Shown piece after piece: positions 1,081 to 59,744 of a DNA stretch of 64,000 bases. Under the pieces are notes generated by a model that did no database searches, was not told the DNA's origin, and saw only the letters and a list, made by a program, of their open reading frames with translations. The stretch spans positions 1 to 64,000 of the forward strand of contig CACLHW010000003.1 of the NCBI GenBank assembly GCA_902606835.1, given 5' to 3'. Position 1 is the first letter of the stretch; each line of letters opens with the position of its first letter. Made by a program: the position numbers and the translations under genes. This stretch comes from an uncultured Pelagibacteraceae bacterium (GTDB taxonomy: Bacteria; Pseudomonadota; Alphaproteobacteria; Pelagibacterales; Pelagibacteraceae).

Positions 1081-1863
1081 ATGAATATTTTAAAAGCTAC
1101 AAAAAGAACTAGTGCCTCAACAGGGCAAGTGAATAAACTAAGATCAGATGGTTTTATTCCAGCAGTATTGTATGGGGGAGAAAAAAATAATTTAAATATT
1201 TCCTTAAAAAAACTTCATTTGCAAAATTTAATAAACACTGAAACTTTTATGTCTAAAGTTTTTGACTTAGAAATTGATGGTAGTTCAGAAAAAGCTCTTC
1301 CAAGAGATGTTGCATATGATCCAATTTCGGACGAACCTATACATATTGATTTTATGAGAATTACAAAAGGTTCAAAAATAATTTTAAATATACCAGTTAA
1401 ATTTATTAACTCTGAAAAATCTCCTGGATTAAAAAAAGGAGGAGTTTTAAATATTGTAAGAAGAAAAGTTGAATTAAAATGTCCTGCCGAAAATATTCCA
1501 GATGAAATTGTAGTTGATTTAGATAATACAGAAATTAATAGTAGTCTTAAAATATCTTCCGTTAAATTACCAGAAAGCGTAATTCCGACAATTACTGATA
1601 GAGATTTTGTTATTGCAACAGTTGCGTCTCCAACAATTTTAGTAGAACCTGAAAAAACTGAAACGACTGCTGATGGAGAAGTTCCAGCAGAAGGTGCGGT
1701 TGAAGGTGCCGTTGAAGGAGAAGGTGAAGCAGCGGAAGGCAAAGAAAAAACAACTAAGCCTTCTGAAGATAAAGGTAAAGCTGCAAAATCCCCAGATGAT
1801 AAAGGGAAAGCGCCTTCAGGTGATAAAGGTAAAGCTGCCAACAAGGAAACGAAAAAAAAATAA
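1081..1863 (+). CDS. rplY: 50S ribosomal protein L25/CTC family with long low-complexity C-terminal tail
   Basis: MNILKATKRTSASTGQVNKLRSDGFIPAVLYGG start at internal ATG 1081; followed by pth as is common; tail EGAVEGAVEGEGEAAEGK...[24 protein letters not shown]. Confidence 0.93.
   Translation: MNILKATKRTSASTGQVNKLRSDGFIPAVLYGGEKNNLNISLKKLHLQNLINTETFMSKVFDLEIDGSSEKALPRDVAYDPISDEPIHIDFMRITKGSKIILNIPVKFINSEKSPGLKKGGVLNIVRRKVELKCPAENIPDEIVVDLDNTEINSSLKISSVKLPESVIPTITDRDFVIATVASPTILVEPEKTETTADGEVPAEGAVEGAVEGEGEAAEGKEKTTKPSEDKGKAAKSPDDKGKAPSGDKGKAANKETKKK
1782..1827 (+). repeat. Donor copy (within rplY tail) of the 46-bp inverted repeat found in hemF
   Basis: In-frame coding sequence of the [14 protein letters not shown] tail; reverse complement present at 7331-7376. 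Confidence 0.95.
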
Positions 1864-6278: not shown

Positions 6279-6728
6279 ATGTTTAATATTGCTCTATATC
6301 AACCCGATATACCTCAAAACACAGCTGCAATAATTCGTTTGTGTTCTTGTTTTAATGCAACCCTTGAAATAATTGAACCATGCGGTTTTTATCTAAATGA
6401 CAAAAGATTAAAAAGAGTCGCTATGGATTATTTGGATAAAACTAAAATAATAACATACAAATCCTACGAAGATTTTGTTATTAAAAAAAAAAAATCAAGA
6501 ATAATATTAATGACTACAAAAGCTAAAAAAAATTACAGCAGTTTTAAATTTAAAAAAAGGGATACTTTGCTTTTTGGTAGAGAAAGTGAAGGTGTTCCAA
6601 AAATTGTACATAAGAGTTCTTCTTACAGATTAAAAATACCTTTAAAAAAAAATACAAGATCTCTTAACGTGGGTATGGCAGCTGCCATAACTTTATCAGA
6701 AGCTCTAAGACAGAATTATTGTTTATGA
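6279..6728 (+). CDS. trmL: tRNA (cytidine(34)-2'-O)-methyltransferase, SPOUT family
   Basis: MFNIALYQPDIPQNTAAIIRLCSC; LLFGRESEGVP; RSLNVGMAAAITLSEALRQ. Confidence 0.92.
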   Translation: MFNIALYQPDIPQNTAAIIRLCSCFNATLEIIEPCGFYLNDKRLKRVAMDYLDKTKIITYKSYEDFVIKKKKSRIILMTTKAKKNYSSFKFKKRDTLLFGRESEGVPKIVHKSSSYRLKIPLKKNTRSLNVGMAAAITLSEALRQNYCL

Positions 6729-7574
6729 AAATAAAAGAAAAACAAAATCTAGCAAAAAAATGGTTTATTAATTTACAAAATATTATTACTAATAATATTG
6801 AAGAATTAGAAGAGGAGTTTGGTTCTAAAACAAAATTTAAAAAAAAAAAATGGAAACATGGTGAGTTTAGAATCATAAGAGGAAAAGTTATTGAAAAAGG
6901 TGGTGTTGCATTTTCAAATGTTAAAGGTAAATTTTCTAGAGAATTTGCAAATAAAATTCCGGGAACAAAGAATAATACCAATTTTTGGTCATCTGGAGTT
7001 TCGGTAGTACTTCACCCAAAAAATCCGAAGGTGCCTGCAATGCATTTTAATACAAGATTTATTTGTACAACAAAAAATTGGTTTGGGGGTGGTATGGATG
7101 TAACACCTTGTCTTGCTGATAATAAAGAAAAAGAATATTTCCACAAAACATTAAAAGTAATGTGCGATCTACATGATAAAAAGTATTACCCTAGATATAA
7201 AAAATGGTGTGATAAGTATTTTTATTTATCACATAGAAATGAATCTCGAGGTATAGGTGGTATCTTTTTTGATTATAAAATGGATAATTGGGAAAAAGAT
7301 TTTTTATTTGTTAAAGATGTTGGTATTACTTTTATCACCTGAAGGCGCTTTCCCTTTATCATCTGGGGATTTTGCAAATTTAGTTAAAAAAATTATAAGA
7401 AAAAAAATGTTTTATAAATGGACTAAAAAAGAGAAAAAAATTCAACAAATAAAAAGAGGAAGGTATGTCGAATTTAATTTATTATATGATAGAGGTACGA
7501 AATTTGGATTAAACAGCGGAGGTAATCCAGAGGCAATATTAATGTCTATGCCACCAACTGCTGACTGGGAGTAA
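6725..7574 (+). pseudogene. hemF: Coproporphyrinogen III oxidase (aerobic), split by a frameshifting 46-bp insertion
   Basis: N-terminal part ends 7342 ([39 protein letters not shown]); C-terminal part [39 protein letters not shown] continues in the +1 frame to 7574; foreign 46 bp at 7331-7376. Confidence 0.88.
7331..7376 (-). repeat. 46-bp exact inverted copy of rplY 1782-1827
   Basis: tttatcacctgaaggcgctttccctttatcatctggggattttgca is the exact reverse complement of rplY 1782-1827 (base-by-base comparison); mismatches immediately flank both ends. Confidence 0.97.
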
Positions 7575-10333: not shown

Positions 10334-12052
10334 TTATAATTTATTTGTAACACCGAAAATTAGCTTTTTGTTTACTATATCTTTTAATTCTTTTTCAGCC
10401 GAATCAAGCTCTAAAATATTTTTCCAAATATATCTGGCCTGAATATTTTTATTTAACATCCATAAAGTGTCAGCGTAATGGTCATTTATTATTGGATCAA
10501 AAGGCAGAAGTTGGACGGCCTTCTGTAAAAACTTCTCTGCTTCAATATAATTTTTTTTTGCATAATAAGCCCATCCTAAAGAATCTATTATATAACCATC
10601 TTCACTTCTTATTTCGTTAGCTTTTTTTAACATCTCTAAACCTTTATCAATATTAATTCCCTGATCAATCCACGAGTATGCTAAATAATTTAAGACATGG
10701 GCTTGATTTGGTAATATCTCAAGCGATTTAATTAAATCTTTTTCAGCATTTTCCCAATCACCGGATCTTTCGTAGCTTGTTCCTCTTCTATCTAATATTT
10801 TTGGAATTAATAAATGGTCGTTATTAATTTTATTCAATGCTAACGAATAATATTTTATAGAATCTTCGTAATACATATTATCTTTATAAAAATTAGCTAG
10901 TTCATAATAGTGCATAAAACTTGGATCTTTGATTAATTCAAATTCTTTTTCTAAATAACTTATAGAATATTCTTTTCCTTTTTCTTTTAATAAAATTTTT
11001 GAAATACTTTTTGTAGCATACCACGAATATGTTGGGCCAATCGATTTTAAAGATTTATAAATATTATTTGATAATTTATATTTTTTTTGGTAATAAAAAT
11101 TTTCAGCTAGAAGAGCATTATTAGTTAAAAAATTTTTGTTTAACAATTGAGAAATTTTAATATAAAAATTTGATAATTGGTACTCTTGCTCACTTGAAAA
11201 AAGGTTTGCCAAAACATAAAAAAATTCAGCGATTGAGTCTTTTGGATCTTTGCAATTAAAGAAGCTTATTGCTTTATTATTTTCTAAAAAAAATTCTGTT
11301 TCTTGTAAAAGAATATTTGAGTTATGTTTTTTTCTAGCGCTTATAATTACTTGTTTTGCCTCTTCGCTTTTGTTTTTAGACAATAAATAATTTGCTAGAA
11401 AAAAATTATATCTAGAAAAATTATACTCTTTATTTTGAACTAATTTTTCAAAAAATTTTTTAGTATCTTGTGAATCGAAAAAACATTTTAAAAGGCTTTT
11501 TTGTGTTCTAATTAAATGTTGATAAGCATTTGGAGTTTTGTCCAAAAATAAAAAACTATCCTTCTTATTGCCATTAACACTTTCGTTCCAAGCTAAAAGC
11601 ACATTACCAATAAAATCATCAAAAAAAAGATTGTATTTAGAAATTCTGTTTAGTCTTTCAAAATGTTTTTTTGATTTTTTATAATCTTTTTTTATAAAAG
11701 AATCTAAACCAAGTATTAAATCTGCTTCAAAAAATAATTCATTTTCATTCCAAATTTTTTCTGAAAAAACTACAGCTTCATCAAATTTTTCAAGTAAAAC
11801 GAGTGTCCTGACAAATTCAATGTTATAATTGTAATGACTTTTTTTTAACGACCTAACTTTTTTTAAATATTTATGTGCCGCGCTATTGTAATCTTTATTT
11901 ACAGCTATTATTCCAGAAAAATAGTTAGAGATGTTTTCACTTGTGTATAAAATTTTGTTATCTTTAGACAAAGCTGGTGTTTTAGTGAAAAGTATAGAAA
12001 ACAAAAGTAAAATAATGTAAATTTTTTTAAATAAAAATTTCATATAGTACAT
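10334..12052 (-). CDS. Tetratricopeptide-repeat protein, secreted
   Basis: Signal-like N-terminus; multiple TPR-like repeats (YIIDSLGWAYYAKKNYIEAEKFLQKAVQLLPFDP). Confidence 0.85.
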   Translation of the reverse strand: MYYMKFLFKKIYIILLLFSILFTKTPALSKDNKILYTSENISNYFSGIIAVNKDYNSAAHKYLKKVRSLKKSHYNYNIEFVRTLVLLEKFDEAVVFSEKIWNENELFFEADLILGLDSFIKKDYKKSKKHFERLNRISKYNLFFDDFIGNVLLAWNESVNGNKKDSFLFLDKTPNAYQHLIRTQKSLLKCFFDSQDTKKFFEKLVQNKEYNFSRYNFFLANYLLSKNKSEEAKQVIISARKKHNSNILLQETEFFLENNKAISFFNCKDPKDSIAEFFYVLANLFSSEQEYQLSNFYIKISQLLNKNFLTNNALLAENFYYQKKYKLSNNIYKSLKSIGPTYSWYATKSISKILLKEKGKEYSISYLEKEFELIKDPSFMHYYELANFYKDNMYYEDSIKYYSLALNKINNDHLLIPKILDRRGTSYERSGDWENAEKDLIKSLEILPNQAHVLNYLAYSWIDQGINIDKGLEMLKKANEIRSEDGYIIDSLGWAYYAKKNYIEAEKFLQKAVQLLPFDPIINDHYADTLWMLNKNIQARYIWKNILELDSAEKELKDIVNKKLIFGVTNKL

Positions 12053-13439: not shown

Positions 13440-14510
13440 ATGTCAAAATTTATTAATAAAATTATTAACGGAGATTCTTTAGAAGTATTAAAAAAAATTC
13501 CAAGCAAAACTTTTAACTTAATTTTTGCAGATCCTCCATACAATTTACAAATTGGAAATAAGCTAAAAAGACCTGACGATAGCGTGGTAAATGGAGTGAA
13601 CGATAAATGGGATCAATTTGAAAACCTTGAACAGTATGACACTTTTTTAAAATCTTGGATTGCAGAATGTAAAAGAATTCTAAAAGACGATGGAAGTATT
13701 TGGGTAATCGGATCTTATCACAACATATTTAGGCTTGGCTATTTTTTACAAAATTTAGATTACTGGATATTAAATGATGTGATTTGGAGAAAAAATAATC
13801 CAATGCCGAATTTTAAAGGAACAAGATTTACCAATGCCCATGAAACTTTAATTTGGGCTTCTAAGAATAAAAAATCAAAATACACTTTTAACTACCAATC
13901 TATAAAATGTTTAAATGATGACCTGCAAATGCGTTCTGACTGGACATTTCCTATATGTAGTGGCAAAGAAAGATTAAAAAAAAATGGAAAAAAAGTTCAT
14001 TCTACTCAAAAGCCAGAAGCGCTTTTACATAGAATAATTTTAGCAACAACAAATAAAAATGATACTATTTTAGATCCTTTTTTAGGTACTGGAACTACTG
14101 CAGTTGTAGCAAAAAAATTGGGCAGAAAATATTTTGGTATAGAAAAAAATAAAAAATACTTTGAAGCAGCTAGTGAAAGAATCAATAAAACTAAAATTAT
14201 TGAAGAAAGTTACTTAGATACTTTAGAAAATAATAAATCTAAACCAAGAGTTCCTTTTGGGTCTTTGGTCGAATTAGGTATAATTAAACCTGGAACAAAT
14301 ATTTTTGACCAAAAGAAAAAAATAAATGCAACAATAATGGCCGATGGCAGTATCAAGCATAGTCTGGGCGAAGGCTCTATTCATAAAGTAGCAGCTAAAA
14401 TACTTGGCACCGAAAGTTGTAACGGGTGGACTTACTGGCATTGTAATATAAAGGGATCAATAAAACCAATCGACAATCTTAGAAAAATTTTTTTTTCTAA
14501 AAATATTTAA
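13440..14510 (+). CDS. ccrM: CcrM-type adenine DNA methyltransferase (GANTC)
   Basis: DPPYNLQIGNKLKRPDDSVVNGVNDKWDQF; DPFLGTGTTAVVAKKLGR; C-terminal Caulobacter-type extension (RVPFGSLVELGIIKPGT). Confidence 0.93.
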   Translation: MSKFINKIINGDSLEVLKKIPSKTFNLIFADPPYNLQIGNKLKRPDDSVVNGVNDKWDQFENLEQYDTFLKSWIAECKRILKDDGSIWVIGSYHNIFRLGYFLQNLDYWILNDVIWRKNNPMPNFKGTRFTNAHETLIWASKNKKSKYTFNYQSIKCLNDDLQMRSDWTFPICSGKERLKKNGKKVHSTQKPEALLHRIILATTNKNDTILDPFLGTGTTAVVAKKLGRKYFGIEKNKKYFEAASERINKTKIIEESYLDTLENNKSKPRVPFGSLVELGIIKPGTNIFDQKKKINATIMADGSIKHSLGEGSIHKVAAKILGTESCNGWTYWHCNIKGSIKPIDNLRKIFFSKNI

Positions 14511-59092: not shown

Positions 59093-59105
59093 AGATTGTA
59101 TGCAA

Positions 59106-59309
59106 TTAAATTTTTTGTAAATTAACTGCTGAAGGACCTTTTTGACCATTCTCAACTTCAAATGTTAGTTCATCACCTTCATTCAACTCTAAGCTTGCTG
59201 CTTGAGCTGCAGAAGAATGAACAAAAACATCTTTTTCTTTGTCTTCTCTTTCAATAAAACCGTAACCCTTTTGTGGATTAAACCATTTTACTTTTCCTTT
59301 TATACTCAT
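59106..59309 (-). CDS. Cold-shock domain protein
   Basis: [31 protein letters not shown]. Confidence 0.97.
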
Positions 59310-59436
59310 GTTGTTTCCTTTCTTTACTTATTTTAAATTTATTGATAGCCAATCTAACAACAAATTTTATTGGGGCAGTTCAAATTAGTTATTAATAAGC
59401 TCTGCCCCAAATTTTATGAAATTTATTGAAATACGA

Positions 59437-59643
59437 TTAAGCTTTTTGCAGTTTTACTGCGGAAGGACCTTTTTCGCCGTTCTCAACTTCAAATGTTAGT
59501 TCATCGCCTTCATTAAGATATTTTAAACCAGCTTCTCTTACAGCTGTATGATGAACAAAAACATCTTTTTCTTTATCTTCTCTTTCAATGAAACCATAAC
59601 CTTTTTTTCCATTGAACCATTTTACTTTACCTTTTAGACTCAT
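59437..59643 (-). CDS. Cold-shock domain protein (paralog)
   Basis: [31 protein letters not shown]. Confidence 0.97.
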
Positions 59644-59744
59644 TTACTTTTCCTTACTTGTTAATAAATACTGTAGATTAACTACAGCAAAACTTCTTTA
59701 ATAGATTGTAAGTAGGTATGTCAAGTTCAAATATAACTTTAATG

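Follow-up and report, generated by a model that had tools for sequence, protein, structure and literature searches.

Whether a conserved gene that is broken in a draft genome is also broken in the living cell is the question raised by the hemF locus of a SAR11 bacterium, in which the reading frame is interrupted by an inverted copy of a sequence from a nearby ribosomal protein gene. If the break is real, heme synthesis may have been affected; if it is not, the gene is intact and the interruption arose while the genome was being amplified or assembled. We analyzed a window of 64,000 nt (contig 3, bases 1-64000) of the draft, which was assigned to Pelagibacteraceae (SAR11) on the basis of its relatives.

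The draft genome and the hemF neighborhood

The draft assembly comprises 965,399 bp in 36 contigs (the smallest of 2,103 bp), is 78% complete with 0.07% contamination, and includes 11,927 bp of N, all as masked stretches and none as scaffold gaps. Single-cell assemblies (designated AG-..., SAG-... or SCGC) make up most of the 80 named relatives. Because of these relatives, and because the draft has a contig floor of 2,103 bp, little contamination and no scaffold gaps, we infer that it is a single amplified genome rather than a metagenome-assembled one.

According to the ORF list, the gene order around hemF is prs, rplY, pth, ychF, cytochrome c1, cytochrome b, Rieske, SpoU-type methylase, hemF and greA. 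Pfam searches supported prs, rplY, pth, the methylase, hemF and greA, and the remaining neighbors were identified from their translations. Elsewhere in the window (59100-59655, minus strand), two similar genes, read as encoding cold-shock-like proteins, occur in tandem and share DNA blocks that are 79-85% identical.

An inverted copy of the rplY tail within hemF

The original prediction, that a segment of hemF is the exact reverse complement of the 3' tail of rplY, was confirmed at every base (Table 1). Copy and donor are 5,549 nt apart, start to start, and the template strand at the donor is the plus strand. The edges of the copy are sharp; once mismatches are allowed, the two arms reach 57 nt at 95% identity. 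In a self-comparison of the whole assembly, this pair was the longest exact repeat among the low-complexity-filtered matches listed, and its length excludes a chance match as its origin. The flanks of copy and donor show 37% and 27% identity, against a random mean of 29% (sd 6%), and are thus unrelated, unlike those of the other exact repeats of at least 30 nt in the draft, which are related or partly related. Separately, a tRNA-Ser(GGA) segment is directly repeated over 40 nt (C3:94873-94912 and 96606-96645; L121:10873, 12606); the two copies enclose 1.7 kb containing an ORF of 523 aa rich in Glu and Lys, and look like an attachment-site duplication.

Table 1. Coordinates of the hemF parts, the inverted copy, its donor and edges, and the other frame breaks (window positions unless a contig is named)
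Feature	Position	Strand	Remarks
hemF, 5' part	6725-7342	+	From ATG 6725; PF01218, E=1.6e-60; 85% identical to L028 (AG-333-E23)
hemF, 3' part, other frame (NLVKK...TADWE)	7377-7574	+	PF01218, E=2.9e-24; undecayed
Exact inverted copy of rplY tail	7331-7376	+	46/46 match; ~40 nt are net insertion
Donor, 3' tail of rplY (ribosomal protein L25, CTC type)	1782-1827	-	PF01386 and PF14693 confirm rplY
Left edge microhomology, TTT (7/8 as TTACyTTT)	7331-7333	+	Host TTACTTTT, donor TTACCTTT
Right edge microhomology, TTTTGCA (7 nt)	7370-7376	+	Donor end equals empty target site
Six frame breaks outside the window	C1 near 8.5, 29.25 and 34.2 kb; C14 near 10.28 and 8.63 kb; C5 near 42.3 kb		

As had also been predicted, reading frames showed that the N-terminal part of HemF stops at a TGA (7340-7342) inside the insert and that the C-terminal part resumes in another frame, which holds the last 65 residues. 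Both parts match PF01218, so that this domain, which lies in one frame in relatives, is divided between two frames in the draft.

Additional copies of the rplY tail were absent from the 22 congeners, and the draft itself contains only donor and copy. Where rplY is readable in relatives, its locus has a low-complexity tail comparable to that of the draft. The tail is strongly divergent among relatives and, in the draft, includes an internal imperfect repeat with 54-nt spacing (window 1758-1841; GATAAAGGTAAAGCTGC).

A functional insert, either a small palindromic mobile element of the Rickettsia type or the site of a programmed +1 frameshift that would yield HemF with 13 additional residues, can be given almost no weight. 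The +1 frame is indeed open through the insert (ORF 7257-7574). Against this, the insert is a single copy in its genome and absent from the 22 congeners, its fold is unremarkable (z 0.14), the site (ATC ACC TGA) has no prfB-like slippery stop, and the frame used by relatives exists without the insert. A mobile or palindromic element was rejected because, in the own genome and in congeners alike, the donor alone matches the insert, and because there is no fold excess.

Net insertion length and edge microhomology

The original prediction of a clean 46-bp insertion needed correction. When spacing was measured from the conserved N-terminal block ending in DVGxT to the C-terminal block starting at the N/YLVKK position, it was 46 nt in the draft and 6 nt in all seven relatives measured, and the net gain is therefore 40 nt. 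The match is longer than the insert because 6 bp of it are host bases that equal the donor. Removal of 46 bp, which had been expected to restore HemF, would give a product two residues shorter than the HemF of relatives. When 40 bp are removed, the joined flanks read KDVGITFANLVKK, with the same length as in relatives (compare their GITFAYLVK, GSTFANMVK and similar sequences). The insertion cost no host bases, and the intact (empty) hemF site would read ...ATTACTTTT directly followed by GCAAATTTAG, while a junction of the insert reads, for example, TTACTTTTATCACCTGAAGG.

Both edges of the insert show microhomology between host and donor. In simulations of random junctions in this sequence, a run of at least 7 nt was expected with a probability of about 3-4e-4 and a run of at least 3 nt with about 3%. 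Thus refined to 40 bp with two edge microhomologies, the claim of a templated, inverted, frame-breaking insertion by template switching, absent from relatives, was supported.

An in silico assembly error, in which a wrong graph path is taken via a short k-mer overlap without any chimeric molecule, is consistent with the 7-nt word common to one edge. The overlaps of 3 nt and 7 nt are, however, far below the k-mers used by assemblers, and therefore at least one real chimeric read must exist, which makes this explanation very improbable.

hemF in relatives

In every SAR11 locus readable across the site, among both congeners and GTDB relatives, hemF is uninterrupted; this survey excludes loci that end before the site or were missed by the motif search. 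The insert is absent from all relatives readable at the site, in a comparison set that holds no second genome of the same species, and a shared old insertion was rejected on this ground.

dN/dS is low and similar in both parts of hemF, and dN of the 3' part to the nearest relatives is not above that of the 5' part. Both parts are similarly constrained, and the break therefore shows no sign of age; an old, decaying pseudogene was rejected, the 3' part being as conserved as the 5' part.

Heme supply

A real and very recent mutation in the cell or its close lineage would be a microhomology-mediated template switch (FoSTeS/MMBIR-like) during replication or repair, with HemF lost and heme obtained via an unassembled HemN, by uptake, or not at all. 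The anatomy of the insert (inverted, microhomology at both edges, no host loss) fits such an event equally well, and a true HemN occurs in some congeners (G002 and G011). On the other hand, the insert is absent from every relative readable at the site, the downstream part of hemF is undecayed, no HemN above the cut-off was detected in the draft, the adjacent cytochrome bc1 genes imply that heme is needed, and the same draft breaks further normally essential genes. We consider this explanation unlikely, although it is the main rival to an artefact.

The search for a second hemF or for hemN called for in the original prediction returned neither: no further PF01218 protein and no HemN above the cut-off were found in the draft, which is 78% complete. 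A standing null allele is therefore less likely, although this falls short of proof. True hemN genes over the NCBIfam cut-off were detected in two congeners (L108 and L109, in genomes G002 and G011). Their neighborhoods are unlike each other and have only weak matches, with no clear counterpart, in the draft, and hemN looks accessory in the genus. The presence of HemN in some congeners means that the genus has a backup enzyme, whose gene the unassembled 22% of this genome could contain. If the break is real, the heme pathway would be interrupted unless HemN is encoded in the missing part. It is highly improbable that the insert is real in the population and that the cells either produce HemF by +1 ribosomal frameshifting into the frame left open through the insert or now rely on an accessory HemN for heme synthesis; if true, an essential SAR11 pathway would have been caught switching enzymes.

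Other frame breaks in the draft

We compared the draft gene by gene with G006, the closest relative compared genome-wide (563 genes, 536 kb of aligned coding sequence). Besides hemF, six draft genes are frame-broken relative to this genome. Five of the six have clear 1-nt insertions in or at nucleotide runs (carB and genes for ftsI-like transpeptidase, lipoamide-dehydrogenase-like, mraY-like and cyclopropane-synthase-like proteins); the sixth, a nucleotidyltransferase-like gene, is less clear. These six breaks are probably errors, and a living cell lacking all five run-broken genes is unlikely, although the breaks at homopolymers may be genuine, or slippage may rescue the genes. False mutations caused by multiple displacement amplification (MDA) have been reported mostly at nucleotide runs (PMC3142133).

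Evidence for and against an amplification artefact

The best explanation of the insert, to which we assign a probability of about 0.78, is a chimera that arose in two template-switching steps when the genome of one SAR11 cell was amplified with phi29 polymerase, and that was kept in the assembly. A nascent hemF strand would have lost its template, and its 3' end would have paired, over a few bases, with rplY, whose opposite strand lay single-stranded 5.5 kb away on the branched molecule that also carried hemF. After about 40 nt had been copied, a second microhomology would have brought the strand back to the hemF position it had left, where synthesis would have continued. If the plus strand was being synthesized, TTT would have served on the way out and TTTTGCA on the way back, and the reverse would hold for the minus strand; the insert fits either direction. 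That the switch occurred in vitro is what we infer, and the cell's own hemF would then be intact.

Published properties of MDA chimeras agree with this explanation. Of 475 chimeras formed in single-cell MDA of E. coli, 85% were inverted, and 83% of these joined sites less than 10 kb apart; most were primed on 2-21 nt of complementarity (PMC1855051). The hemF insert has all of these properties: it is inverted, within 10 kb of its donor, and has priming matches of 3 nt (7/8) and 7 nt. Inversions were also increased by two orders of magnitude in mate-pair data after MDA (PMC3142133), and a benchmark of the SCGC single-cell pipeline, which lies behind many of the draft's relatives, gave 1.5 misassemblies and 3.0 indels per 100 kb (PMC11247762). 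A SAR11 single-cell relative (AAA795-P11, L095) carries a 66-nt inverted copy (98% identity; 11588-11653 and 13770-13835, 2.1 kb apart) that ends exactly at the contig end; it resembles an MDA chimera and would be an ordinary product of this process. The identity of donor and copy and the undecayed downstream part of hemF also speak for an artefact.

Other observations argue against an artefact. In most MDA chimeras there is a single junction, and events in which the strand goes there and back and both flanks are retained are rarer; in the literature we found no rate, no direct precedent and no bacterial examples for this class. In addition, a sharp-edged inverted copy occurs only once in the draft: widespread chimeras were rejected, as no other such copy of at least 30 nt within 10 kb was detected, shorter ones not being discernible in this AT-rich genome.

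The original prediction had left open whether the insertion is real or an artefact. The second option stands, and the balance now lies towards it because of the apparent single-cell origin of the draft, its other frame breaks, the MDA chimera profile of the insert and the error rate of the pipeline. Given this balance, the suggestion that HemF is lost in the organism is unsupported as a biological conclusion. An artefact is most likely, and gene loss should not be concluded from this break without raw reads.

Public single-cell genomes serve as proxies for uncultured ocean bacteria, and a there-and-back chimera in a conserved gene is liable to be annotated as a pseudogene and misread as loss of heme synthesis. 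An exact inverted copy within 10 kb, microhomology at the edges and an intact gene in relatives may together serve as a filter for such false pseudogenes. If the insertion were real, it would be a clear case, in a wild bacterium, of a template-switch insertion with two junctions.

Comparison with known systems

The inverted chimeras formed by phi29 polymerase in MDA, described by Lasken and Stockwell in 2007 (PMC1855051), resemble the hemF insert in their inverted orientation, a distance of less than 10 kb and priming on short complementary sequences. These chimeras are described with a single junction and an intervening deletion, whereas in hemF the strand returns, leaving a small insertion without loss. 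FoSTeS/MMBIR events and short template-switch insertions resemble the hemF insert in joining at two microhomologies and in copying a short segment in inverted orientation. However, they are real mutations in cells, and the hemF insert is present in only one assembly, presumably of one cell. Another known class of short inserts inside conserved coding genes is the Rickettsia palindromic elements, which are multi-copy and in frame. In contrast, the hemF insert occurs once, breaks the frame and consists simply of rplY sequence.
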